Origin: an uncultured Clostridia bacterium
GTDB taxonomy: Bacteria; Bacillota; Clostridia; Christensenellales; Borkfalkiaceae
Direction: 5' to 3'
NCBI GenBank assembly: GCA_947175325.1
Contig: CAMWME010000002.1
Span: 124,001-188,000 of the forward strand
Length of the DNA stretch: 64,000 bases
The notes under the pieces were generated by a model that did not search any database, was not told the origin of the DNA, and was given only the letters and a program-made list of their open reading frames with translations. This document shows positions 1-17,354 of this stretch, one piece after another; position 1 is the stretch's first letter, and each line of letters begins with the position of its first letter. The translations under genes were made by a program, and so were the position numbers.

Positions 1-1039
1 CTTCTGCAGTTACCCACGTTGATTCTTCGGTTGTAACGCCGTCCTCTTTTTCTTTTTTAATTATCCACTCACCACGATCCCTTTGCTGAGTTTCAAAATG
101 TCTAATTAACTTAATTATTTGGTTTTTAAACTGATACTCTTCAGAAGACACCAAAGTAATTAAAGCGATATACGGCAAATTATGTACGAAAGGATTCTTC
201 TTATAATGATAATCTTTCGAGTCAATTAATCTCTTTATTACATACCAATTTTTTTTGATATATTTTAATATTTCATTTTTAAATTCTCTATCTGCTTCGG
301 TAAGATATTTTGATTTTACCAAACACATGTATCCGTACATTAAATTTGCAATATCATTTTCCAAAATCAAATTATCATTTAAGGCTTTCTTTTGATTGTA
401 GCTATAATTATTTTTACTGATAATTGTTTTTATAAAGTTTCTCACATAAGCACAAGCATTTCTAACAACGGTACTATTACTTGCATCTTTCCCATCAGCT
501 TTGTAACCTTTTAAAACATAGTAAATAAATAGTGGTGAACTTGATTTTTCTATTGATTTAACTGAATCGCACCATCCACAATCAACTTGTTGATTTTTAT
601 CTAACCAATAAATTCCTTTCTCTATACAAGTTTTAATCCTTTTCTCGATATCGCTTATACTAAATTCACCGTTAAGGCAAGTGAATTTTTCGATTGTAGA
701 ACCAGTTAAAACATTATCATAAAAAAGTTTTAACGCATAAATTGTATGACCAGTTGACACTGTTGACGAACCACTTCCGTCTGCAGTTTCCCAGTAACCA
801 CATTCATCGTCAACATCAATAAATTTGCTCAACAAAAACTGAACAGATTTAAATAATTTATCTAAAACGGTTAAATTTAAATCAATCGCATCAGTCAACA
901 AGAGTGCCTCTAAAGACTCAGAAGTTGTCCATATGCCACTTTCATTTTTAAAGGCTTCGCCTCTCGGCATACCGCCATCTTCGTTTTGTATTCCTAATAT
1001 ATATGTTGTCCCTTTTCTAATAAGTTCGGAATAATTCAT
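1..1039 (-). CDS. Terpenoid-cyclase-like (alpha/alpha toroid) repeat protein, partial
   Basis: The reading frame is open from an ATG at 1039 to the window edge, so only the N-terminal ~346 residues are visible. An early stretch, ILGIQNEDGGMPRGEA, resembles the Q-x(2)-DGG turns of prenyltransferase/squalene-cyclase repeats. Further aromatic- and glycine-rich turns follow at roughly 30-residue intervals (ECGYWETADGSGSS, NQQVDCGWCDSV, RDRGEWIIKK). These repeats normally build an alpha/alpha toroid that binds hydrophobic or peptide ligands. No complete DxDD or prenyltransferase zinc site can be confirmed in the visible part, so enzymatic activity is unproven. The gene starts 9 bases after the stop of the kinase-like gene upstream, with GAGAAG as ribosome binding site, so the two are almost certainly co-transcribed. 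Family assignment is moderate; function is unknown. Confidence 0.55.
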   Translation of the reverse strand, partial: MNYSELIRKGTTYILGIQNEDGGMPRGEAFKNESGIWTTSESLEALLLTDAIDLNLTVLDKLFKSVQFLLSKFIDVDDECGYWETADGSGSSTVSTGHTIYALKLFYDNVLTGSTIEKFTCLNGEFSISDIEKRIKTCIEKGIYWLDKNQQVDCGWCDSVKSIEKSSSPLFIYYVLKGYKADGKDASNSTVVRNACAYVRNFIKTIISKNNYSYNQKKALNDNLILENDIANLMYGYMCLVKSKYLTEADREFKNEILKYIKKNWYVIKRLIDSKDYHYKKNPFVHNLPYIALITLVSSEEYQFKNQIIKLIRHFETQQRDRGEWIIKKEKEDGVTTEESTWVTAE

Positions 1040-1048
1040 ATTATCTTC

Positions 1049-1645
1049 TCAATTAAGTTCATTTTTTATATGATTAGCAAGTATACCCATTTCAAATTGT
1101 AATTCTTCAATAGTTTTAGGCTCAATTACTATCTTGGGAATTTTTACGGTACTAAAGTATTCTTGATATCTTTGGGATATTGCTGTTAATATTTGAGCAT
1201 TTTCTTCATCTTCAATATAATTTTTACGCTTTTTTATTCTTTCAACCGCAATTACTGGATCCACATCACAAAAAATATATAAATTAGGTTCAGGTAGGCT
1301 GTTATAAATAGAATCCATTATTTTCCGAGTTTGAAATGGAACATTATCAATCTCATTCAAGATTTGGTAACAAATAGAATATCTATCAGATAGTAAAACT
1401 TGTGGATGATAAGAAAATATTCTTTGATAATATTTTGCAAATTCAAACGCCATAGCAATACGTTTAATTTCAGTAGTTTTATCTTTTTCTAAATATTCCC
1501 AACCGCTATTCTTTAAAGTTTTTTTAGAAGAAAAAGGACATTTTGCAACTTTTACTTCTATTTCGGGAAGCAATATATTTTTTAATATATTTATAGATGT
1601 CGTTTTTCCTGCGCCATCAATCCCACAAAATGCAATATGGATCAT
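1049..1645 (-). CDS. Thymidylate-kinase-like P-loop kinase
   Basis: A protein of 198 residues with the Walker A motif GIDGAGKTT at the extreme N terminus, a SDRY motif near residue 87 (the DR[YFH] nucleotide-monophosphate-binding motif of dTMP kinases) and a basic LID-like segment RIKKRK. This fold phosphorylates dTMP or related nucleotides. The housekeeping tmk lies at 45.6 kb, so this second, AT-rich copy is probably specialised. Its partner is the toroid-repeat gene immediately downstream. A TTGCAC-17-TATAAT promoter precedes it. Family membership is secure; the substrate is not, and a role outside nucleotide synthesis (defence or a biosynthetic cluster) is only an inference from context. 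Confidence 0.75.
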   Translation of the reverse strand: MIHIAFCGIDGAGKTTSINILKNILLPEIEVKVAKCPFSSKKTLKNSGWEYLEKDKTTEIKRIAMAFEFAKYYQRIFSYHPQVLLSDRYSICYQILNEIDNVPFQTRKIMDSIYNSLPEPNLYIFCDVDPVIAVERIKKRKNYIEDEENAQILTAISQRYQEYFSTVKIPKIVIEPKTIEELQFEMGILANHIKNELN

Positions 1646-1687
1646 TATTTTCTCCTAAAATCGATACACAAAACTAAAATTTATTAA

Positions 1688-1716
1688 ATTATAACATAAT
1701 TTGATATTTTGTGCAA
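1688..1716 (-). promoter_or_regulatory. Sigma-A-type promoter of the kinase/toroid operon
   Basis: Read on the minus strand: TTGCAC, 17-base spacer, TATAAT. The -10 lies about 40 bases upstream of the kinase-like start codon, which itself has a TAGGAG ribosome binding site. Confidence 0.65.
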
Positions 1717-1827
1717 TTAAAACTTTATGGTTGGAAATCTTTAAATTTTTAACCTATATAGCAATCCTAAAAAATAACTAGTTTGAATATTAAAAAGTAT
1801 TCTAAACCGTTATAAACCCACTAATGA

Positions 1828-2077
1828 TTGTTAGACGTGTGCCTATCTTCAGATGAAGCAAGCGTAAGTTTGCGCTTGTCACAGAGACATCTGCACGCTA
1901 AATCTAAAAAATTGAACAACCGAAAAGGAAGAAAAATAAATCACAAAACCAATGTTAAATTGAAAGATTTGGCAGATGGCAGATTTATGGTCGCTTGTCT
2001 TGAACGGTTCGTATATATTCTCTGCTCGGGCACCACTAATAACGTAAGTTGAACCCCATTCAGCTTGCGTTATTTTT
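1828..2077 (+). other. Structured gap: tandem small hairpins, doubtful 74-codon ORF, terminator
   Basis: Between the two divergent accessory units there is a segment with three consecutive short inverted repeats: CTTC/GAAG around 1847-1858, CAAGCG/CGCTTG at 1859-1878 and CAGA/TCTG near 1882-1893. It ends in a strong terminator. A 74-codon frame from a TTG at 1828 to 2052 crosses the segment, but has no convincing ribosome binding site and resembles no family I know. The structure suggests either a small untranslated RNA or the decayed end of an older gene. I prefer the RNA reading but cannot prove it. Confidence 0.3.
2038..2077 (+). terminator. Rho-independent terminator
   Basis: A 16-bp stem (two G-U pairs as RNA) with left arm AATAACGTAAGTTGAA and right arm TTCAGCTTGCGTTATT, a five-base loop CCCCA and a following T-run. 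It closes whatever is transcribed from the structured gap and isolates the large helicase gene downstream. Confidence 0.75.
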
Positions 2078-2167
2078 GTATTAAAAAAGTCGAATTACAC
2101 TTAAAAAACATGCAGTAGCCTTTATTAAAATTATAACTTGAAACAAATTTAAAGTAAGCAGCTACTA

Positions 2168-2196
2168 TTGCGAATTTTTGCTTGTTATGGTACAAT
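2168..2196 (+). promoter_or_regulatory. Sigma-A-type promoter of the GHKL-helicase gene
   Basis: TTGCGA, 17-base spacer, TACAAT, about 32 bases before the start codon. The ribosome binding site is weak (GGGAAA), which would keep expression of the large protein low. Confidence 0.55.
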
Positions 2197-2228
2197 AATG
2201 CAAAATAATTCTTTGGGAAATACAAATT

Positions 2229-5200
2229 ATGACAGAGCAAGAAAAAATCTATTTCGAAGCATTAAAAAAAGACCGTGCAGACAGCGATAGAGTTTTACAA
2301 AAAACTTCTATGCGGGGCGTAAAAACAAGCGTTGTTGAAAAATACTCAGATCAAGCACACTTCATTTATGAGCTGTTGCAAAATGCAGATGATGCAGGCG
2401 CAACAGAAGCTAATTTTGAACTTTATTCGAATAAACTTATATTCAAGCATAATGGAACAAGGCTTTTTTCGGTTTCAAATCCCGATACCGAAGATATAGA
2501 TACTGTAAATGGTAATTTAGGTGATATAAATGCTATTACCTCTATTGCAAATTCAAACAAGACTGCTGCCGAAATAGGCAAATTTGGCGTTGGCTTTAAA
2601 TCTGTATTCCAATATACGAAAACACCAAAAATATATGACCCCCATTTTAGATTTTATATAGATAATTTCATTGTTCCTATTGAAATAGAAAATGATTTAG
2701 CTGAAAGAAAACCGAACGAAACTGCTTTTGAATTTCCATTCAACCACGAAGAAAAATCAAAAGAAGACGCATATTCCGATATTGCAACTAAATTAAGCAA
2801 CCTTAAACTGCCTATTCTGTTTTTAACAAATTTAAAATTTGTTTATTATCATTTACCCGATAAGGCTGAACATTTTGGGATATATGGAAAATCAACAGAG
2901 TTATCTACTGAAAACAACGATACAAAAATAGAACTTATAAAGCTAACTCATAATGTTGAGGAAGATTTACAAGATAAAAGATTATGGCTATTTACCCGCA
3001 AGTATAACGATTTAAAATATTCGATTGGGTTTTTTGTTGATGAGACCGGTAAACTTACGCCCGTAAAAGAGCGTGCTTTTTGTTTCTTTCCTACCAAAGA
3101 AGAAACTAAACTTAATTTTATAATTCACGCACCGTTTTTGCTTACGGACAGCCGAGAAGGAATAAAGGCTACCGCTCCGCATAATAAAAATATGATTTCC
3201 TTACTTTCTGAATTGGCGGCAGATAGTTTAGTTCTATTGAGAGATATAGGAATTGAAAGAAAGACCAGACTAATTGACGATAACATAATTGATATTATTC
3301 CTTTTAATGAGAATGAATTCAACCCGATAAACGATGGCGAAAAGATATCGTTTATACCTTTCTTTACCGCAATAAAGAAAAAGTTTGAAACCGAAGAACT
3401 TCTACCGGCTGAAGACGGCTATGTTAGCAAAATTAATGCGTATTGGGCAGCTGTTACAAGGCTAACAGAGGTTTTCGGCAATGAGCAATTAGCTTTATTG
3501 TGCCATAATCCGCAAGCAAAATGGGTTTTTACTTCTTTGGGTCGTGAGAATACTCAAAGAAAAAACGAAGACAGCCCCATTTCTTCATACATAGATGACA
3601 TAACAAAAATGTGGTTGGATGAAAGTGCGTTGTTGAAAGGGCGTTCGACCGGTAACATCTTTTCGGGCATTCGCAAAATTTTTGCAGGCGTTGACTCCAA
3701 ATTTATCAAAAACCAATCAATCGATTGGTTACATAATTTTTATAAGTGGATAGCCGAAAGAAACCAAAGAATAGAAACGATAAAACAGTTGCCCATTTTC
3801 CTTGATAAAAACGGTAACGCTGTAGCCGCTTATCATTCTGACGGTAGCCTTAATTTGTTCTTCGATGTTGAGGATAATAATATTTACACCACTGTAAATG
3901 CCGAATTAATGAAAAACGAGGAAACGGTAGCTTTTCTTCAAAAATTGGGCATAAAAACTCCCGCATTGAAAGATGAAATTTATAGTATTATTTTGCCTCA
4001 ATATGAGGACGGCGAAGATATTGAGACCCTCCCCCACTTTAAAAAAATATTTGACTATTACAAGAGTTGCCCACAATCGGAATTAACTGATTTTATTGAA
4101 AAAATAAGAGAAGTTGAATTTGTACTTTACAGCTCCAAAGCTGACGGCACAACATATAGAGGTAAGGCTCAAAATTTATATTTCCCTAATAGAGAATTAT
4201 TAGAATATTTTGAAACCGCACCGGATACAAAATTCGTTAAAATCGATGAATATAAACAAATCGTTAAAGATTCTGACGAGAAACACCTATATGATTTTTT
4301 AAAACTTTTGGGTGTGAAAAGTGAAATCGAATTAAAAACTGAATGCCCTATTAATTATTTTGACGTTCAAAAATATGGTCTTCCTCAACCGACGCGTTCT
4401 ACTAGCGCACTCAGATACACACAAACCTATTTGGACGGCTTCGACGAGATATTATCCGAGATTATTAAAAATAAAAATTTATACAAGTCGATATGTTTAT
4501 GGAATGCGCTGTTGAGAATTTGTAAAATCAACGGTAATTCTCTATCTTGCCTTGAAAGGGGAAAATGTTCCTACTTCTATTATTTTTCCAAAACAGAGTG
4601 GTTTACGTCTACCATAAAAACTCAACTTTTAATTTCAAAGTGGTTATTCAACCCCAATAATGAGTTTGTATCCCCGTTAGAAATTAACGTTGACGAGTTA
4701 AGGAATTATTACGAGGCGGATACAATTGAAGCTAAAGCGCTAATTGAATTTCTATCTGTTAATGAGAAATCTTTACAAACAGAACCGGAAGAAGAATTGA
4801 CCGAGGAACAACGCAGACAGCTTGAACTTGACAATATATTGAAAGAGTATAACGTCAATTCGCCGCAAGAGCTGGCTGAAATTTTGCGAAAGCTCACCAA
4901 AAAAACTGATAAAGAGCCCGCTAACACACCCGACGATGAAGATGACGGCGGCGAGAAAACAACCACCCCCGCCATTGAAAAGGTTATTAAAAAAATTCGC
5001 AAAAAAATAGCAACGCCCTCCACTTCTGATTTACCAAATGAGGAAGATACCGACGAGGACGATTATACGAAGCCGGCTGTCGACTACAATAAAAAAATAG
5101 AACAAGCAGAAGAAAAAAGCCGTATAGAAATTGAAAGAATAGCTCATTTGCAAGAATTGCAGACAACCGCCGCCAACGCAGAGAAATATTCTTATTTGTG

Positions 5201-7022
5201 GTTTAAAACATTATTGGAAATGGAACGCCTTGCGGACGGCGAAGATAACGGCAATAGCAGAGAAATTTCAATTACGTTTGCTAATGCAGAATTAGAAGCC
5301 GGAACAACTAGAACTCTGATATTAAAACATCCAAATAGATATATTCCGCAATTTATGGAAGATTTGGCGGACATCCCTTTAACTTTGCACTATGGCAATC
5401 AAACCAAAAAAGTTGCCATAGAAGTTATGAACGTGCAGTCATATAGCGTAAGGGCAAAATTGAAATCGGGAGCAGAAATCGAAGACGTAGATTTAGCACT
5501 TGTAAATGAAGCACGAATCGATGCCAAAAACCCTACGTTTTTGCTCGAAGAATTGATTAAAGGTTTTAATTCGTTAGACTATGCGAATGACTTTAATTTA
5601 AAAACAAATCTTACTGATAAAATAGATTTTATTTTTGGCCCCCCGGGGACCGGCAAAACTACGCATTTAGCAAATAACGTTATCTTGCCGCTAATTCGGG
5701 AAGATAAAAATTTAAAAGTTTTAGTTTTAACTCCTACCAACAAAGCAGCTGATGTTATTACAAAACGCATAATGGAATGTGATAAAGCACAATCATATTC
5801 TGAATGGCTTATACGGTTTGGCATTTCTAACGATGAAGCAATAGAACATAGCGGGATTTATAAAGATAAAACTTTTGATATTAGGACTTTATCGAAAAAC
5901 GTTACGGTTACGACCATTGCAAGATTCCCTTATGATTTCTTTATGCCGGACGGCGCAAGGCTTCATTTAAGCGAATTAAAATGGGACTATATTATCATAG
6001 ACGAAGCTTCTATGATACCCCTTGCAAATATAATTTTTCCGTTATATAAAAAGACTCCGACAAAATTTATTATTGCCGGCGACCCTTTCCAAATACAGCC
6101 GATTACCCGCAGTGCGGCTTGGAAAGATGAAAATATTTATACAATGGTAGAATTAAACTCTTTTACAAAGCCTACTACTGTTCCTCACGCTTATAAAATA
6201 GAACTTTTAACAACTCAATATAGAAGCGTACCCACAATAGGCAAAGTTTACAGCGATTTTGCTTATGGCGGTGTTTTAAAGCATAATCGTTTAGAAGATA
6301 GCAAGCGAAAATTGAATATTGACGAATTTGTAAATTTGTCTTCGTTAAATATAGTTAAATTCCCTATAAGCAAATACGAAAGTATTTATAAACCTAAACG
6401 ATTACAAGGCAAGACACCATATCAAATCTATTCAGCTCTATTTACGTTTGAATTAGTAAAATTTGTAGCCGATAAGCTTGCAGTTAAAAATAAAGGCGAA
6501 ACCTTCAGTATAGGTATTATCGCACCCTATAGAGCGCAAGCTGATTTAATTGATAAATTGTTTGCATCGTTTAAATGTCCGGCGGGAATAGACATTCAAG
6601 TCGGAACTATACACGGTTTTCAAGGCGATGAATGCGATATCGTATTTGCAGTCTTTAATCCGCCACCTAAAATATCGTCTTCAAAAGATATGTTTTTGAA
6701 TAAGAAAAACATTATAAACGTATCTATTAGCAGAGCAAGAGATTATTTGATTATCATAATGCCCGATGACAACACTGAAAATATAGAAGATTTGCGCTTG
6801 ATAAAGAGGGTTGAAGATATTTGTAATGATAATGGCAGCCTTGAATATCTTTCCCCTAAAATAGAAGAACTGATATTTAATGATAGCCGTTACCTTGAAA
6901 ACAACTCGTTTGCTACAAGTCATCAAATAGTCAACGTTTACGGAAAGCCCGAATTGAAGTACGAAATCAGAAGTGAAGAAACGGCGGTTGATATTCAAAT
7001 TCACACTGATGAAAATGATTAA
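2229..7022 (+). CDS. Sacsin-like GHKL ATPase fused to an SF1 (Upf1/DNA2-like) helicase
   Basis: A 1597-residue, probably stand-alone protein. The N terminus holds a GHKL ATP-binding fold of the sacsin type: N-box ELLQNADDAGA near residues 48-58, a HNG stretch near 74, and the lid/G2 motif IGKFGVGFKSVF near 117-128. A long middle region follows, then a charged, acidic low-complexity linker at about 870-970. The C terminus is a superfamily 1 helicase: Walker [10 protein letters not shown] near 1138, Walker B IIIDEAS near 1255, a GDPFQIQP motif, THGFQGDE-like motif V (TIHGFQGDECD) near 1460 and SISRARDYL motif VI near 1499. No nuclease motif was recognised. Composition is markedly more AT-rich than the housekeeping genes, which suggests transfer. 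Large ATPase-helicase proteins in such settings are often phage-defence genes; that role is inferred here. It has its own promoter and a strong terminator follows. Confidence 0.8.
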   Translation: MTEQEKIYFEALKKDRADSDRVLQKTSMRGVKTSVVEKYSDQAHFIYELLQNADDAGATEANFELYSNKLIFKHNGTRLFSVSNPDTEDIDTVNGNLGDINAITSIANSNKTAAEIGKFGVGFKSVFQYTKTPKIYDPHFRFYIDNFIVPIEIENDLAERKPNETAFEFPFNHEEKSKEDAYSDIATKLSNLKLPILFLTNLKFVYYHLPDKAEHFGIYGKSTELSTENNDTKIELIKLTHNVEEDLQDKRLWLFTRKYNDLKYSIGFFVDETGKLTPVKERAFCFFPTKEETKLNFIIHAPFLLTDSREGIKATAPHNKNMISLLSELAADSLVLLRDIGIERKTRLIDDNIIDIIPFNENEFNPINDGEKISFIPFFTAIKKKFETEELLPAEDGYVSKINAYWAAVTRLTEVFGNEQLALLCHNPQAKWVFTSLGRENTQRKNEDSPISSYIDDITKMWLDESALLKGRSTGNIFSGIRKIFAGVDSKFIKNQSIDWLHNFYKWIAERNQRIETIKQLPIFLDKNGNAVAAYHSDGSLNLFFDVEDNNIYTTVNAELMKNEETVAFLQKLGIKTPALKDEIYSIILPQYEDGEDIETLPHFKKIFDYYKSCPQSELTDFIEKIREVEFVLYSSKADGTTYRGKAQNLYFPNRELLEYFETAPDTKFVKIDEYKQIVKDSDEKHLYDFLKLLGVKSEIELKTECPINYFDVQKYGLPQPTRSTSALRYTQTYLDGFDEILSEIIKNKNLYKSICLWNALLRICKINGNSLSCLERGKCSYFYYFSKTEWFTSTIKTQLLISKWLFNPNNEFVSPLEINVDELRNYYEADTIEAKALIEFLSVNEKSLQTEPEEELTEEQRRQLELDNILKEYNVNSPQELAEILRKLTKKTDKEPANTPDDEDDGGEKTTTPAIEKVIKKIRKKIATPSTSDLPNEEDTDEDDYTKPAVDYNKKIEQAEEKSRIEIERIAHLQELQTTAANAEKYSYLWFKTLLEMERLADGEDNGNSREISITFANAELEAGTTRTLILKHPNRYIPQFMEDLADIPLTLHYGNQTKKVAIEVMNVQSYSVRAKLKSGAEIEDVDLALVNEARIDAKNPTFLLEELIKGFNSLDYANDFNLKTNLTDKIDFIFGPPGTGKTTHLANNVILPLIREDKNLKVLVLTPTNKAADVITKRIMECDKAQSYSEWLIRFGISNDEAIEHSGIYKDKTFDIRTLSKNVTVTTIARFPYDFFMPDGARLHLSELKWDYIIIDEASMIPLANIIFPLYKKTPTKFIIAGDPFQIQPITRSAAWKDENIYTMVELNSFTKPTTVPHAYKIELLTTQYRSVPTIGKVYSDFAYGGVLKHNRLEDSKRKLNIDEFVNLSSLNIVKFPISKYESIYKPKRLQGKTPYQIYSALFTFELVKFVADKLAVKNKGETFSIGIIAPYRAQADLIDKLFASFKCPAGIDIQVGTIHGFQGDECDIVFAVFNPPPKISSSKDMFLNKKNIINVSISRARDYLIIIMPDDNTENIEDLRLIKRVEDICNDNGSLEYLSPKIEELIFNDSRYLENNSFATSHQIVNVYGKPELKYEIRSEETAVDIQIHTDEND

Positions 7023-7115
7023 TTTTTAGCGCTTGGAGCTTTGAAATTATATCTAAAATAAAGCCGTAAGCAACCAATATGTCAATTGGTCAATTTTGTT
7101 TTGTTGTGGTGTGTC

Positions 7116-7151
7116 AAAAGCTGGGGGAAGGTAATACTTCCCCCAGCTTTT
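7116..7151. terminator. Bidirectional terminator between the helicase and ABC transporter genes
   Basis: A long perfect stem (AAAGCTGGGGGAAG with its complement) around the six-base loop GTAATA, with T-rich flanks on both strands. It serves the converging helicase gene (+) and the permease gene (-). Confidence 0.85.
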
Positions 7152-7168
7152 GCGTGGTTGGATTTTTG

Positions 7169-12613: not shown

Positions 12614-13747
12614 ATGATAAAATTGGGAACTGCGTTCAGCGGAATAGGCGCGATTGAACAAGCGCTTTTAAGGCTTCAAATGCCTCACGAAATCGAATTC
12701 GCTTGCGATAACGGCGATATAGATATTTCCGTTGATACCGATGAAGAGCTTAATACCGTCAGAGGTTTATCCTCGCCCGAAGAAAAGCGAGATTACGTGG
12801 ACACGCTTTACAAGAAAAAGTCTATTAAAAAGAATTTTGTAAAGCAGTCTTACCTTGCGAACTATCAAGTGAAAAACGATTTGTTTTTTGCCGACGTGAA
12901 GATGCTGGACGGCGCGGATTTTAAAGATAAAATCGATTTGTTCGTGGGCGGAAGCCCTTGCCAGAGCTTTTCGGTTATAGGCGCAAAGGGCGGTTTTAAC
13001 GATACCCGCGGTACGCTTTTTTACGATTACGTAAGGCTTGTAAAAGAAATTCAGCCCAAGGTTTTTATTTACGAAAACGTGTACGGTTTGACCCGCCACG
13101 ACAACGGAAAAACTTGGGCGATTATGCAACAGGTTTTCAGTGAGCTGGGATACAGCTATAAGTTTGAAATTTTGGACTCCCGCAACTACGGCATTCCGCA
13201 AGGGCGGAGAAGAATTTTCGTGGTCGGGTTTAAGGACGCGAGCCACGCGGAAAAATTCGAGTTCCCCTCTCCCGTTGACTTAAATTACACGATGCAAGAC
13301 TTCCTTGAAGAAAATACTGCCGTGGGCAGTTTGCAGAGCGTTGACGGAAAGCTTACGAAAATAAACGACGAAAAAGGCGAGCCCGAAGAAAGATATTATT
13401 TATCCGAAAAGTTAAAGGCGTACTGCCTCTCCCCGGGCACCAAAAACTTTATGCACGCCGACGCAAAAATCGATTTGCCCATCGCCCGCGCGCTTTTATC
13501 CACGATGGGGAACTCTCACCGCTCGAGCGTAAACAATTACGTTACCACGAACGGCCGCGTCCGCGCGTTGACCGTGAGAGAGGTGCATAGACTTATGGGC
13601 TTCCCCGACAGCTATAAAATAGTAGTATCGAAGGCGCAAGCTTATAAGCAAGCGGGGAACTCTATCGTGGTGGACGTGCTTATGAGTATCGTGAGAGAAA
13701 TTGCAAAGGTTGAAGGTTGGGATTATGGAAAGAATAAAAACGACTGA
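12614..13747 (+). CDS. DNA (cytosine-5) methyltransferase, first of two
   Basis: A 377-residue C5-MTase with motifs in the usual order: I (GTAFSGIGAIEQAL), IV with the catalytic Cys (GGSPCQSFS, PCQ at about 115-117), VI (YENVYGL), VIII (QGRRRIFVVG) and X (QAGNSIVVDVL). The insert between motifs I and IV is longer than usual (about 45 extra residues after the first motif). The target-recognition region lies between VIII and X and is where specificity should differ from the second enzyme. It is the first gene of an operon of two methyltransferases and two nucleases with overlapping or nearly touching ends. Its role is to methylate one strand of the host's recognition sites. Confidence 0.95.
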   Translation: MIKLGTAFSGIGAIEQALLRLQMPHEIEFACDNGDIDISVDTDEELNTVRGLSSPEEKRDYVDTLYKKKSIKKNFVKQSYLANYQVKNDLFFADVKMLDGADFKDKIDLFVGGSPCQSFSVIGAKGGFNDTRGTLFYDYVRLVKEIQPKVFIYENVYGLTRHDNGKTWAIMQQVFSELGYSYKFEILDSRNYGIPQGRRRIFVVGFKDASHAEKFEFPSPVDLNYTMQDFLEENTAVGSLQSVDGKLTKINDEKGEPEERYYLSEKLKAYCLSPGTKNFMHADAKIDLPIARALLSTMGNSHRSSVNNYVTTNGRVRALTVREVHRLMGFPDSYKIVVSKAQAYKQAGNSIVVDVLMSIVREIAKVEGWDYGKNKND

Positions 13748-14705
13748 TAAAAAGTATCGGGTCGTAAGCTTGTTTGCCGGTATCGGCGGGTTTGACATCG
13801 GGTTCGAGAACGCCGGATTTAATATTATTTGGGCGAACGACTTCGATAGGTTTGCGGTTGAAACTTACAAGGCAAACGTGGGGCGGCAAATAGTGCTTGG
13901 GGATATCCGCGAGGAAAAGGCGAACATTCCCGAACACGACGTGCTTATCGGGGGCTTCCCTTGCCAGCCGTTCAGTACGTTAGGAAAGCTTAAAGGCTTT
14001 GACGATACCGACCGCGGGGATTTGTTTTTTGAGATTAAGGATATTCTTAAAACTCACAGAACCAAAGCCTTCGTGCTGGAAAATGTTAAAAACATTATAA
14101 ACCACAATAAGGGTGAAACCTTCAAGCGCATACTTCACGAGCTGCACAGTATCGGGTACGAATGCTCTTTTAAGGTTTTGAATTCGGCAGATTACGGAAT
14201 ACCTCAGCGCAGAAACAGAGTCTACATAGTCGGATTTTTGAGAGACGCGTTTGAAAGCCTTGACTTCGAATACCCCCCCACCATTCGTTTACAGCTTACC
14301 ACTCAGGATTTGCTTGATAAAGAAGTGGATAAAAAATATTTCCTTACGCCGAAGATAGAAAAGACCATCCTCGGCGAGGGCACGAAGGGATACATAGTTC
14401 AGCCCACGATTGATTTGCCCATTTCTAAAACGCTTACCGCTACTATGCACAAGATGCACCGCGCAAGTCAGGACAACTACGTTACGGACCTTGAAAGCCG
14501 CGCACTGTTTAACGACGACAACCGCACGAACATAAGAAAACTGACCCCCGACGAGTGCAGAAAATTGCAAGGCTTCCCGAGCGACTGGGTGCAAGTCGTT
14601 TCCGATTGCCAAGCGTATAAGCAGTTCGGCAACGCGGTGACGGTTGACGTTGCGTATGCGATTGCAGTTAAACTTATGGAACACATGAATAACAATATGA
14701 GGTGA
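13725..14705 (+). CDS. DNA (cytosine-5) methyltransferase, second of two
   Basis: A 326-residue C5-MTase beginning MERIKTTDKK at 13725, overlapping the first enzyme by 23 bases with an AAGG-like site inside it. Motifs: I (SLFAGIGGFDIGFENAG), IV (GGFPCQPFS, PCQ at about 79-81), VI (LENVKNI), VIII (PQRRNRVYIVG) and X (QFGNAVTVDVA). It differs clearly from the first enzyme outside the motifs, so it is not a recent duplicate. Two C5-MTases beside two nuclease genes are what one expects when the recognition site is asymmetric and each strand needs its own methyltransferase, as described for BbvCI and Bpu10I systems. Confidence 0.95.
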   Translation: MERIKTTDKKYRVVSLFAGIGGFDIGFENAGFNIIWANDFDRFAVETYKANVGRQIVLGDIREEKANIPEHDVLIGGFPCQPFSTLGKLKGFDDTDRGDLFFEIKDILKTHRTKAFVLENVKNIINHNKGETFKRILHELHSIGYECSFKVLNSADYGIPQRRNRVYIVGFLRDAFESLDFEYPPTIRLQLTTQDLLDKEVDKKYFLTPKIEKTILGEGTKGYIVQPTIDLPISKTLTATMHKMHRASQDNYVTDLESRALFNDDNRTNIRKLTPDECRKLQGFPSDWVQVVSDCQAYKQFGNAVTVDVAYAIAVKLMEHMNNNMR

Positions 14706-14709
14706 AAAA

Positions 14710-15939
14710 ATGCCCGCAAGCTCGATAACTTTTATTGACGACAGAGATTTGATTTTAAATTACATAGAGAGCCGTTCGCAAGATATGTACGAATACGTGC
14801 TGTCTAAGCCGCAGACGAGGTTTACGCTGTGGTATAAAAACCTTACTCATTCCGACCTTACAACCCGCGGAAAAAGAAACGGTTGGCAAGAGGGGCTTGA
14901 TAAAAACATTTTGTACTATCTGAGCGTGGACGAGATGCTTGAAATCGAGGAAGCGAGCAAAAAGGAATTCGAAAGTGCAAAGCAGTCTAACATAGGTATG
15001 TCCGACGCGTTTTACGCGGATTTGGATATGCCGAGGCTGCAGCGCAGAAAGGGCCCGCAGACGACTCAGCACGAGCACTTGCAAGTCAACGATTACGCCG
15101 ACGTGTATCTTGTAAACGATACGGTAAAGTACTTTACGATAGAGTACACGAAAAGGGTTATAGCAAAAACCGGCAAGAAGGTGAAATGGGACGATGACGA
15201 AACCGTTACGCTTAGCGGGTCGAAGTTTACCCCCATTCAGATTACTCAAGCCATTCACGGGCTTGGGACTGCCGATGATACGGAATTTCACAAGCTTAGG
15301 CTGTCTATGTTCCTCAACGATACTTTTATCGTACTTATTGAGCACACCGACGTGAAAAGCGTTTACGTTATGCTTGAAAAGAACCCGCGGTTTTTCACTT
15401 TGATAGGTGAAACGAACGAAAGCTGGGAACGCTACCTCTTGGTTAAAAAACAACAAGAGCAAGCAATGATAACCGTCCAGACGGGGTTGGCTGTCGAGGA
15501 AGAAAAATCGAGGGCACAGCAGTCGGCTTGGAAGGATTTGTTGGCGAAGGAAATGATGAACTACACCACTCACGAGGGTGAAGTGTTCTGCCCGTTTACC
15601 CAGATAAGCGCCGACTTTGAAAGCTTGTCTATGCTGTTTATAGCTTCGCACATAAAGCGGTTTGCCGACTGCGACGCAATCGAGGCGTACGACGTAAACA
15701 ACGGGCTTCTCTTGTGCGCCAACGCCGACGCGCTGTTTGACAAGCATATGATTACCGTTGACGAAAACAAGCAGCTGGTCTTCTCCTTTTTGATAGAGGA
15801 TAATTTACAGCTGCGGCACAAGCTACTTTTAAACCAGCCCATTTTCAATTTGATTTTAAACGAAAAGCGTATGGAATATATGAAGGAGCACCGCAGAATT
15901 TTCTATTTAAAAGAAGAAGAAAGAAAAAGGAATAAATGA
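14710..15939 (+). CDS. HNH restriction endonuclease subunit A
   Basis: A 409-residue protein, start with GAGGTG upstream. The C terminus is an HNH domain of the HNH_2 type: CPFT near 294, SHIK with the His near 314, NNGLLLCANADALFDKH near 331-346. The N-terminal half (TRFTLWYKNLTHSDLTTRG near 36-54) and a central HGLGTADD segment near 183 recur in the next gene, so the two are paralogues. Position directly behind two methyltransferases makes it a restriction endonuclease; together with its paralogue it probably forms a heterodimer in which each subunit cuts one strand. I do not recognise a characterised enzyme by name. Confidence 0.75.
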   Translation: MPASSITFIDDRDLILNYIESRSQDMYEYVLSKPQTRFTLWYKNLTHSDLTTRGKRNGWQEGLDKNILYYLSVDEMLEIEEASKKEFESAKQSNIGMSDAFYADLDMPRLQRRKGPQTTQHEHLQVNDYADVYLVNDTVKYFTIEYTKRVIAKTGKKVKWDDDETVTLSGSKFTPIQITQAIHGLGTADDTEFHKLRLSMFLNDTFIVLIEHTDVKSVYVMLEKNPRFFTLIGETNESWERYLLVKKQQEQAMITVQTGLAVEEEKSRAQQSAWKDLLAKEMMNYTTHEGEVFCPFTQISADFESLSMLFIASHIKRFADCDAIEAYDVNNGLLLCANADALFDKHMITVDENKQLVFSFLIEDNLQLRHKLLLNQPIFNLILNEKRMEYMKEHRRIFYLKEEERKRNK

Positions 15940-17354
15940 CAAAAGAGGATATTATGACAAAAAATTTTAACAGCTTTTCTTATACTGAAAACGAGGAAGA
16001 TATTTTTATTTATATTCAGTACAATTCTGAAAACTTATTGAAGATATTTAAAAGGGATATTAAGCATCATTTCATTCTTTTCAGAAAATATCTTTCTCAC
16101 TCTGACTTAGTTACAAAGGGCAAACTCGGGAAGGGAACAAAAGTCGGGCTGTCGAAAAAAGCGCGTATGAAATGTTACAAGCTCTATTATCAAAGCGTCG
16201 ACGAATTGATGAATATCTGGAAAAACAAAACTCCTCCGGTTGCCGGACAATCAAATATTTGGATGCAGAAAGATTTTTATCAAAAAACGAAGACGAAATC
16301 ATATGTAGATAATAACAAAAAGCAAGCGGATATCGTTTCGGATTACGGCTTGCAAGTTTTCATACCCTCTGATACTTGTAAAGATTTTAATTTGGAAGAT
16401 TTAAACAAAATTTGCGAACATAACAAAAAGTACAAATATGAAGGTAAAGAAGCGGAAGACTTGAAAAAGTTTAATCCTAAAGCCTTCTTAGACGAAAAAA
16501 GCGGTTTGTTGAAAGTCGACTCGTTACATATCGCGGCGCACGGACTGGGCACCGATGACGATGCGCTTTTCGCCTACTTGCGGTCGTTCGTGTTTAAGGG
16601 CGACGTTCTGAACGCTTTATACGATGATACTGACAATATCCTCTATTTGTTTTTTGAAAGGAATGAGAAGTATTATACTCTTTTGAACTTGTGTGACAAT
16701 AGTAAACCTCCTATTCCCCCTATCTGGCGCGAATATTCAGATGAAGACAAGGCTGAAATTGTAAAAACACTTTGCCTTGCCGAAATGCTAAATGAAACTC
16801 CGGATACAAGCTCTGCTTTGAAGCAAGAACTTCCGGAAGACGACGAATTACAAAAATTGCTTAAAAAATACCGCGAAGACTATAAAAAATCGATTGATGA
16901 CGTGCTTGCTTCGGGCGAAATACCAAAATGCAGATGGTATCAAAAAAAATGGAAAGAAGTTTTGATTAAAGCAGACGAACTTCATTTTAAAGAACGCGGT
17001 TCTGCCGTTTGTGCGATATCGGGAATAAGGGGCGATTCCACTAAACTTGGTAAATTCTTCGTCGCTTCACATATAAAGTCTTATGCGGATTGCATGAATA
17101 ATGAAGAATACGAAGATGCGTTTGACCCTGATAACGGGCTGATTTTATGTGCAAATATCGACGCACTGTTTGACAGGCATCTTATCACTATTGATAAATC
17201 CGGTAAAATTATTATCAAAGACGTTGTTAAGGGCATAAAGGACCGAGGAAAATATTTGCGGTTCAAAAAGTTGGATAAATATTACTTGAACCCAAACAGA
17301 TTAAAATATCTTAAGGTGCACAAGGCAATATTTGATTCTAATCCGGATAAATAA
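15936..17354 (+). CDS. HNH restriction endonuclease subunit B (paralogue of A)
   Basis: A 472-residue paralogue of the preceding nuclease. Matching blocks are LFRKYLSHSDLVTKGK near 48-63, AHGLGTDDDALFAYLRS near 201-217 and an HNH_2 domain (CAISG near 359, SHIK near 378, NGLILCANIDALFDRH near 400-415). It is longer mainly through insertions between the second and third blocks. The start overlaps the previous stop (ATGA); an alternative ATG 18 bases on has a better-placed GAGG and could be the true start. The gene is visibly more AT-rich than the three genes before it, so it may have joined or evolved separately. Likely partner subunit in a two-chain endonuclease. Confidence 0.75.
   Translation: MTKEDIMTKNFNSFSYTENEEDIFIYIQYNSENLLKIFKRDIKHHFILFRKYLSHSDLVTKGKLGKGTKVGLSKKARMKCYKLYYQSVDELMNIWKNKTPPVAGQSNIWMQKDFYQKTKTKSYVDNNKKQADIVSDYGLQVFIPSDTCKDFNLEDLNKICEHNKKYKYEGKEAEDLKKFNPKAFLDEKSGLLKVDSLHIAAHGLGTDDDALFAYLRSFVFKGDVLNALYDDTDNILYLFFERNEKYYTLLNLCDNSKPPIPPIWREYSDEDKAEIVKTLCLAEMLNETPDTSSALKQELPEDDELQKLLKKYREDYKKSIDDVLASGEIPKCRWYQKKWKEVLIKADELHFKERGSAVCAISGIRGDSTKLGKFFVASHIKSYADCMNNEEYEDAFDPDNGLILCANIDALFDRHLITIDKSGKIIIKDVVKGIKDRGKYLRFKKLDKYYLNPNRLKYLKVHKAIFDSNPDK

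Follow-up and report, generated by a model that had tools for sequence, protein, structure and literature searches.

The 64,000-nucleotide stretch of DNA analysed here (the window; positions 124,001 to 188,000 of contig CAMWME010000002.1, assembly GCA_947175325.1) belongs to an uncultured bacterium of the class Clostridia and carries, on its plus strand at 2229..7022, a gene in which a sacsin/Hsp90-like GHKL ATPase is fused to a superfamily 1 (SF1) helicase. The open reading frame (ORF) begins with ATG, is intact and encodes 1597 amino acids; this chain, which the initial annotation had described as a sacsin/Hsp90-like GHKL domain joined to a Upf1/DNA2-like helicase, has Pfam and NCBIfam matches above cut-off and full-length homologues. 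It consists of a GHKL supradomain of ca. 860 amino acids that is joined by a variable acidic linker to a helicase of ca. 610 amino acids with a conserved tail. In view of the defence genes that repeatedly adjoin its relatives, the fusion protein probably belongs to a type of antiviral machinery of bacteria that has not yet been named.

Architecture and conservation of the fusion protein

All parts of the gene are given in window coordinates on the plus strand. The GHKL supradomain covers residues 1-856 (2229..4796), as indicated by Pfam SACS, the PADLOC profiles for TmtA (which we take to be the protein of the Tiamat system), hhalign, AlphaFold and Foldseek. Pfam SACS (PF25794) matched residues 34-136 with 52.3 bits, above its cut-off of 32.8, and the NCBIfam model P_loop_sacsin (NF047352), which describes the sacsin N-terminal ATP-binding domain, passed with 69.9 against a cut-off of 50. 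The N-box ELLQNADDAGA lies at residues 48-58 (2370..2402) and the ATP-lid glycine motif IGKFGVGFKSVF at residues 116-127 (2574..2609). An AlphaFold model of residues 1-880, built with 73 sequences, reached a mean predicted local distance difference test score (pLDDT) of 90.1 and a predicted template-modelling score (pTM) of 0.72. Foldseek, a check that the initial annotation had proposed, placed Hsp90, TRAP1, GRP94, GyrB/ParE and human sacsin SR1 (E 1.1e-6) at the top of the matches in the PDB; by sequence, the nearest PDB entry for this half is sacsin. The middle of the chain had been described as large and uncharacterised, a view that has to be given up: hhalign of the N half against six helicase-less TmtA-like cousins gave an alignment of 794 columns over the whole of residues 1-856, with probability 100 and E 2e-116. 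As judged by this alignment, the ATPase domain and the middle region are one supradomain of ca. 860 amino acids common to TmtA-like proteins.

The C-terminal half, from about residue 985 to 1597 (5181..7019), is an SF1 helicase of the Upf1/Sen1/IGHMBP2/Dna2 type according to Pfam, the structure model and Foldseek. The best stretches for Pfam AAA_11 and AAA_12 are residues 1130-1204 (56.2 bits) and 1322-1510 (81.3 bits), with a cut-off of 27, and the Walker A (GPPGTGKT, residues 1137-1144, 5637..5660) and Walker B or motif II sequences (DEAS, residues 1258-1261, 6000..6011) are both present. The IGHMBP2-family helicase model TIGR00376 scored 103.6 bits, well under its NCBIfam cut-off of 348.9. 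In the predicted structure of residues 940-1597 (pLDDT 87.5, pTM 0.82) Upf1 was the best Foldseek match (E 1.9e-27), followed by Sen1, IGHMBP2 and Dna2, whereas the nearest PDB entries by sequence are IGHMBP2 (SMUBP-2), Sen1, a 5'-3' RNA helicase-like protein, Upf1 and Dna2. The helicase ends in a tail with the majority consensus NSFSTxHQxVNVYGxPEKxYEVRxEDxAVDVQI, and 20 of the 75 aligned relatives continue for 68-251 residues past it. By eye, the tail extensions of several relatives (among them loci L023, L032 and L090) resemble a putative small SH3/tudor-like domain. Between the two halves lies the variable, acidic linker (about residues 857-984, 4797..5180; approximate boundaries), the least conserved part of the chain, with a conservation of 0.25 at residues 901-950.

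Conservation was read from an alignment of 76 rows, comprising the window protein and 75 ORFs of more than 1500 amino acids and omitting L068, L074, L087 and L092 (near copy of L095). In all 76 rows the N-box residues E48, L49, Q51, N52, A53 and D55 and the lid residues G117, F119, G120, G122 and K124 are identical. The same holds in the helicase for G1137, G1140, G1142, K1143 and T1144 of Walker A, D1258 and E1259 of Walker B, G1284, D1285 and Q1288 of motif III, Q1330 and R1332 of motif IV, Q1465, G1466 and D1467 of motif V, and R1502 of motif VI. Positions adjoining these invariant residues vary. Since the catalytic residues of both ATPases are invariant throughout, both motors must be under strong selection within one chain. 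Together with full-length homologues of 55% identity in two other genomes of the class, this places the fusion beyond chance.

As a unit the protein is absent from the libraries: no model in Pfam, NCBIfam 2026, PADLOC 2023 or PHROGs spans the entire chain, the halves being matched separately, in line with the earlier remark that no described system of exactly this architecture was known, although one might exist. NCBIfam gave the identical two partial matches for three relatives, and the PHROGs matches of the window protein are one Dda-like helicase family and three families of unknown function. A nuclease domain, which the initial annotation had also failed to see, was matched in none of Pfam, NCBIfam, PADLOC and PHROGs. 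No named system with the fusion architecture was found in the open-licence literature, with subscription papers and preprints outside the search.

The N half also occurs without a fused helicase. Such relatives were examined at six places, and at four of these (a Methanomethylovorans plasmid, two Rhizobium plasmids and genome G064 of the window's GTDB family) the GHKL gene lies directly behind a helicase gene, 1-5 bases apart. The same helicase adjoins in G077 (L004), a locus outside the six whose GHKL frame was not extracted. The Sulfuricurvum cousin (L126) has a NERD gene and QatABC as neighbours. The cousin helicases are mutually related (27-40% between sources, over stretches of hundreds of residues, and 62-93% for those that form pairs), and the one that was searched is nearest to RapA/SNF2; against the window helicase they gave no match better than E 1.9. 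Since the cousins pair with an SNF2-type helicase and the window protein with a Upf1-like one, the combination of putative clamp and helicase occurs with two helicase superfamilies. It thus appears as a recurrent pairing, which is fused in the window protein. The upstream gene in G065 (L002) is likewise helicase-like by eye. A compact two-gene unit of RapA/SNF2-type helicase and sacsin-like GHKL protein was recorded at L124, L125, L127, L003 and L004; three of these loci are on plasmids (one archaeal, two from Rhizobium) and two in genomes of the GTDB family to which the window belongs. The unit probably constitutes a separate defence system.

Distribution and neighbourhood of the relatives

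One scan of 84,980 species genomes (one per species), with patterns derived from the GHKL part, gave 298 relatives, of which the best 80 were kept and read. At least 69 of these 80 are a single intact ORF of more than 1500 amino acids that spans the query. For L068, blastp returned the helicase part only, yet its own sequence carries the same N-terminal motifs; it was therefore rejected as a protein with a different N terminus and is probably a fusion too, outside the 69 counted. Full-length copies occur on one Chryseobacterium and one Hymenobacter plasmid (2 of the 63 plasmid records with a match), annotated in both as 'AAA domain-containing protein', and in four records of the viral_contigs collection when an alignment was the query; a single-sequence scan of that collection gave five pattern matches, none of them a relative. 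Among phage records there was one partial match, in an unannotated record. A helicase-only match on a Streptococcus salivarius plasmid was not used.

Among close relatives of the host the gene is rare. Four of 201 genomes of the GTDB family match, and only the window's own genome has it at full length (1/201); in the class, full-length copies are present in 3 of 391 genomes including the own one, the other two being the 55% identical homologues. When 25 host genomes were searched again, each held the family at a single place, in 2-3 aligned pieces in L012, L058, L060 and L086. The tree of relatives carries 12 phylum labels with 17 label changes against a minimum of 11, and the copies from a Porphyromonadaceae (L069) and a Peptoniphilaceae genome (L070) pair with a support of 98 in the Shimodaira-Hasegawa-like approximate likelihood ratio test (SH-aLRT). 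Because the bins of metagenome-assembled genomes may misplace contigs, this spread is consistent with transfer but no proof of it. A very distinct sub-clade on a branch of 1.93 (L061, L063, L064, L066, L067, L069, L070 and L076) includes close copies labelled Bacteroidota, Chlorobiota and Bacillota and is a candidate for recent transfer.

The commonest neighbour of the relatives is a RecD-like SF1 helicase of ca. 1220 amino acids that corresponds to the PADLOC candidate PDC-S68 (1754.6 bits). Its hidden Markov model is matched in 20 loci. Among the 56 loci scored for adjacency, 17 have a homologue next to the fusion gene, which corresponds to 12 parsimony changes on the tree. A Mod/Res pair of type III restriction genes precedes the fusion gene in the same orientation in 8 of 55 loci scored (5 parsimony changes), with Res the immediate next gene in the type III loci listed. 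Many partner genes are on the same strand as the fusion gene, with gaps of some tens of bases. In these counts positives were accepted whatever their flanks, and a locus was scored negative for PDC-S68 only if each flank exceeded 1.5 kb, and for type III genes only if the upstream flank exceeded 4 kb, a rule that slightly favours positives; the type III count still includes the near copies L047/L094 and L023/L095. Small negative gaps between the preceding gene and the fusion ORF (L025, L039, L047, L056, L082 and L094) are not claimed as overlaps, because in L025, L047, L056 and L094 they follow from the choice of the first start: a later ATG comes after the upstream stop and sits at about the start position of the window gene.

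Co-divergence was considered as a sign of a fixed complex of the core with PDC-S68, with a correlation of their distances of r 0.674 (n=14, 1 of 5000 permutations), and this candidate was rejected, as the significance is due to one clade. The C terminus of PDC-S68 shows, by eye and in five copies, the pattern E ... PDF ... WEH of a putative PD-(D/E)XK-type nuclease. A C-terminal extension of ca. 120-150 residues after the helicase tail of the fusion protein is common to L012, L020, L025, L026, L029, L058, L086 and L088; the loci with this extension mostly have an adjacent PDC-S68 gene (not L086), an association confounded by common ancestry.

Other neighbours are a TOTE primase, helicase and PLD protein (L090), ResIII/T5orf172 and GmrSD_N (L032), JetD (L072), SLFN_AlbA_2 (L025) and a UvrD helicase with exonuclease domain (L007). 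The initial annotation had suspected a defence gene and proposed a survey of neighbourhoods, and such a survey, limited to 20 loci and 20 controls, points to defence rather than housekeeping surroundings. Of 120 neighbouring proteins picked, 80 were used, namely the two nearest ORFs of at least 150 amino acids on each side of the 20 loci; for comparison, 80 control proteins were taken at fixed positions of the same contigs (20 controls) and cut down in the same way. At E <= 1e-20 the neighbours matched 159 PADLOC families and the controls 31, a count of families rather than of proteins with a match, which concerns the homologues only. BrxL, RhuM and AlwI-type genes are among the 80 nearest proteins, as are ordinary genes (carboxylesterase, aminotransferase, exonuclease VII, GTP1/OBG). 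Argonaute-like genes lie just 3' of the fusion gene, behind type III Mod/Res, in L054 (14827-16908) and L047 (14870-16966); the Piwi-domain protein of L054 was scanned singly, and the L047 gene is known through its cluster and the family counts.

The site in the window

The GC content is 28-37% at window 1-7000, as AT-rich as had been stated, and 35.5-53%, mostly >=40%, past 7 kb. The AT-rich block as a whole (28-39% GC per kb, compared with 44-52% to its left) extends from beside a tRNA-Leu gene (C2:119501-119587) to about window 7169, where an ABC-transporter operon has its 3' end. The fusion gene is alone on the plus strand of this block, whose other genes are on the minus strand. Upstream of the fusion gene, a terminator-like hairpin (2038..2074, plus strand) lies inside an intergenic element of ca. 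48 bp, and a possible extended -10 promoter, TTGCGA-17-TACAAT, follows at 2168..2196 (plus strand; a consensus match). Downstream, where the fusion gene and the ABC-transporter gene converge, a perfect inverted repeat of 16 bp with both arms checked (7115..7152, no strand assigned) is likely a bidirectional terminator. The initial annotation had given the gene its own promoter and terminators on both sides. The flanking hairpin and inverted repeat agree with this, whereas the site classes are near the shuffled expectation (25 promoter-like sites against 22.0 expected, 4 terminator-like sites against 4.9), so the claim is weakly supported.

Of 61 genomes of the genus, 10 (the own one included) encode proteins like that of the transporter gene. 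The 3' side of this gene was examined in seven of the nine other genomes, in several of them over stretches of a few kb or less that reach contig ends, and in these seven stretches the fusion gene was not found behind the transporter gene. By eye, the same site holds a serine recombinase and a C5 methyltransferase in L120 and a type I HsdM-like gene in L119. In L118 it has an HSP90-like ATPase (HATPase_c_3) beside a protein that is HerA-like by eye and lacks a Pfam match; the remaining four sites have short or unassigned genes or, in L123, AddAB-type genes by eye. None of these flanks shows a clean empty-site junction, the 3' flank of the transporter gene being filled by other genes, and only a short element recurs there (60 columns, 81.7% in one relative), in inverted orientation with respect to that gene. 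What occupies the site thus varies between genomes and in some cases includes defence-type genes; from these seven sites a hot spot can be suggested. The element of ca. 48 bp (window 2030-2078) was found in 13 of the 61 genus genomes searched, the own one among them, and stands once directly behind the same ABC-transporter gene in another species.

The toroid and kinase genes and the restriction operon that the initial annotation had mentioned are both present. The former belong to a minus-strand cluster beside the tRNA-Leu gene (L116:11814-17645, that is G000:C2:119814-125645, partly window 1-1645) with genes for AP_endonuc_2, a TehB-like methyltransferase, a dCMP-deaminase-like protein, a toroid-like protein, GTP cyclohydrolase I, a second toroid-like protein and a thymidylate-kinase-like protein. 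The last of these, at 1049..1645 on the minus strand (Pfam Thymidylate_kin, 53.2 bits), is the divergent neighbour of the fusion gene and is mentioned as context, not as a part shown to belong to the system. SQHop_cyclase_C matches of the two toroid-like genes are below threshold, and the cluster looks like a putative nucleotide or secondary-metabolite pathway. The restriction operon (window 12614-17354) consists of two C5 cytosine methyltransferase and two HNH-type endonuclease genes in a row, the two HNH-type genes having an 80-nucleotide stretch in common that is 70% identical.

Proposed function and comparison with named systems

Both motors are joined in one chain and conserved, and the homologues stand in a defence context. 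We tentatively read the fusion as an unnamed, horizontally mobile two-motor family of defence islands, in which a GHKL clamp and a 5'-3' translocase would act against phages or plasmids, a reading that we hold to be close to an even call; for the clamp function, the polarity, the substrate and the antiviral effect we infer as follows. In MutL, GyrB and Hsp90, ATP binding makes the GHKL modules dimerise and shut like a gate, and Upf1-like helicases move 5'-3' on single strands, which together lead to the proposal of an ATP-gated clamp plus a stripping translocase. The GHKL part would be an ATP-gated clamp as in MutL, GyrB and Hsp90, and its closure would respond to, or enclose, an aberrant nucleic acid or nucleoprotein complex of the invader. 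The helicase, of SF1B type, would translocate 5'-3' and strip or unwind a strand, by which phage or plasmid replication would be stalled, and the exposed strand might be handed to a nuclease. This nuclease would come from a neighbour where one is present (PDC-S68 with its nuclease-like tail, type III Res, or the TOTE primase/helicase/PLD protein); solo copies, as in the window, would depend on host nucleases or do without.

A wider idea, which we regard as possible but rather doubtful, is that there is a widespread and so far unnamed class of immune machines in which a GHKL clamp controls a translocase, and that this class arose two or more times, as the SF1 fusion and as the SNF2 pair. The clamp would be the sensor of the invader and the helicase the executioner, with exchangeable nucleases (PDC-S68, type III Res, TOTE) alongside. 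The sacsin fold is known mainly from a human neurodegeneration protein, and would in that case gain an antiviral role on nucleic acids in bacteria.

Several observations weigh against a two-motor defence family as described. The window copy has no defence gene directly adjoining, and neither PDC-S68 nor type III genes as neighbours; PDC-S68 was not found elsewhere in its own genome, where only a RecD-like match of 20 bits was seen, so that this copy would function on its own or together with other proteins of the host. Neither partner is present in 31 of 56 loci (28 of the 50 scored for both). The PDC-S68 gene may be upstream (gaps of about 10-183 bases), downstream or on the opposite strand, and its correlation with the core is gone without five close rows (r 0.082, n=9, 1483 of 5000 permutations); with partner side and strand varying in this way, a fixed two-protein complex is not supported. 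The controls match PADLOC as well, through one Wadjet operon, which accounts for most listed control rows, and mad3-type proteins in 3 of 80. The tree is a quick one of 470 columns with 22 of 73 inner branches open. Template-modelling scores over the query are only 0.23-0.27 for the ten best Foldseek matches of the N half, so the likeness is loose outside the ATPase module, though the module itself is clear. The substrate may be DNA or RNA, because Upf1-like helicases include both.

The likeliest of the other explanations, which we still consider unlikely, is an accessory or regulatory chaperone-helicase that remodels or loads restriction-modification and helicase-nuclease complexes without being the effector, with solo copies working in trans. 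The co-oriented type III Mod/Res genes immediately in front of it and adjacent PDC-S68 would suit such a protein, the C5 methyltransferase/HNH operon 5.6 kb away in the window could be its target in trans, and there is a precedent in the paraMORC proteins, which like MORC are thought to loop DNA for restriction-modification enzymes (PMC2292703). However, the partners differ in kind, side and strand, and none is fixed as a dedicated subunit would require. The initial annotation had proposed a stand-alone gene, which fits the window copy and the 31 of 56 loci without either main partner, but not the 17 of 56 that adjoin PDC-S68 or the 8 of 55 beside type III genes.

The nearness of the helicase half to Upf1, Sen1, IGHMBP2 and Dna2, which are housekeeping proteins, might instead speak for a general helicase of nucleic-acid repair or RNA quality control with a chaperone-like regulator, of use to the host and found in islands only incidentally. 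This is improbable in view of the patchy and rare occurrence among close relatives (a single full-length copy in 201 genomes of the family), the copies on plasmids and viral contigs, and defence neighbours above the controls. The two full-length plasmid copies and four in viral-contig collections might instead reflect a function for mobile elements themselves (maintenance of a plasmid, integrative element or prophage, anti-restriction or competition between elements) rather than host immunity, and integrase- or recombinase-like genes near several loci and a transposase-like gene beside L009, both by eye, agree with it. We judge this, too, to be improbable: the chromosomal copy L010 is among ordinary-looking genes by eye, and other copies are within multi-gene defence islands. 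Mobility as such does not separate it from the proposed defence family, because defence genes ride the same elements. That the protein is no more than the TmtA of Tiamat extended by a helicase, and so a member of that named system, is highly improbable: the TmtA profiles match residues 10-972, and the profile-profile match to TmtA-like cousins covers 1-856, but the helicase-less cousins score higher, the longest TmtA match stops before the helicase, and no profile spans the chain.

Tiamat and Mokosh were reportedly first described by Millman and colleagues in 2022. By their profile matches, each half of the fusion falls in a named defence kind, the N half being Tiamat-like and the C half Mokosh-like. 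With Tiamat it has in common the sacsin/Hsp90-like GHKL domain and the TmtA-type long middle (profiles PDLC03964-PDLC03972, best 128.7 bits). It differs in that no listed TmtA stretch reaches the SF1 helicase, the longest ending at residue 972, which corresponds to position 924 in a profile of 1302, and two helicase-less cousins that were scanned match TmtA better (268.6 and 184.9 bits). Mokosh, of which we take MkoA to be the protein, is represented in PADLOC by the MkoA/MkoC profiles PDLC03920, PDLC03921 and PDLC03924 and appears to have a helicase core of the same Upf1-like kind, with best matching stretches at residues 1249-1510 (122 bits, MkoA) and 1245-1511 (96.4 bits); the match is partial, its best stretch covering 788-1073 of a profile of 1112 positions. 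For types I and II of Mokosh, PMC10952713 (Table 1) gives a PLD-like domain. The window protein has no PLD match in Pfam, NCBIfam or PADLOC, and no PLD partner adjoins it, the neighbours being the thymidylate-kinase-like gene and an ABC-transporter permease gene (by eye).

The SNF2/RapA and GHKL pair has the same N-terminal supradomain tied to a helicase, but the helicase there is encoded by its own gene, upstream, belongs to another superfamily and has no significant similarity to that of the window protein. PDC-S68 is itself an SF1 helicase, RecD-like, and a recurrent neighbour, but a separate protein. Eukaryotic sacsin has the sacsin-type GHKL domain in common, but it carries three Hsp90-like modules, DnaJ and HEPN domains (PMC3710099) and lacks an SF1 helicase. 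Should the proposed defence family hold, 298 relatives under many phylum labels would be missing as a unit from PADLOC 2023, NCBIfam 2026 and Pfam. Tiamat, Mokosh and the candidate PDC-S68 would be joined in one theme of GHKL clamp and helicase motor, and bacterial sacsin-like ATPases would gain a testable model in one gene with two separately inactivatable ATPases.

The closest published model that we encountered is that of Iyer and colleagues, who proposed (PMC2292703) that MORC and paraMORC GHKL ATPases in restriction-modification operons remodel protein complexes and form loops in DNA, with helicases doing the unwinding. The context is alike, with a GHKL ATPase alongside helicases and nucleases in mobile defence operons, but the partner helicases described there are of superfamily 2 and encoded by separate genes, whereas the window protein has a sacsin-like GHKL domain and an SF1 helicase fused to it.

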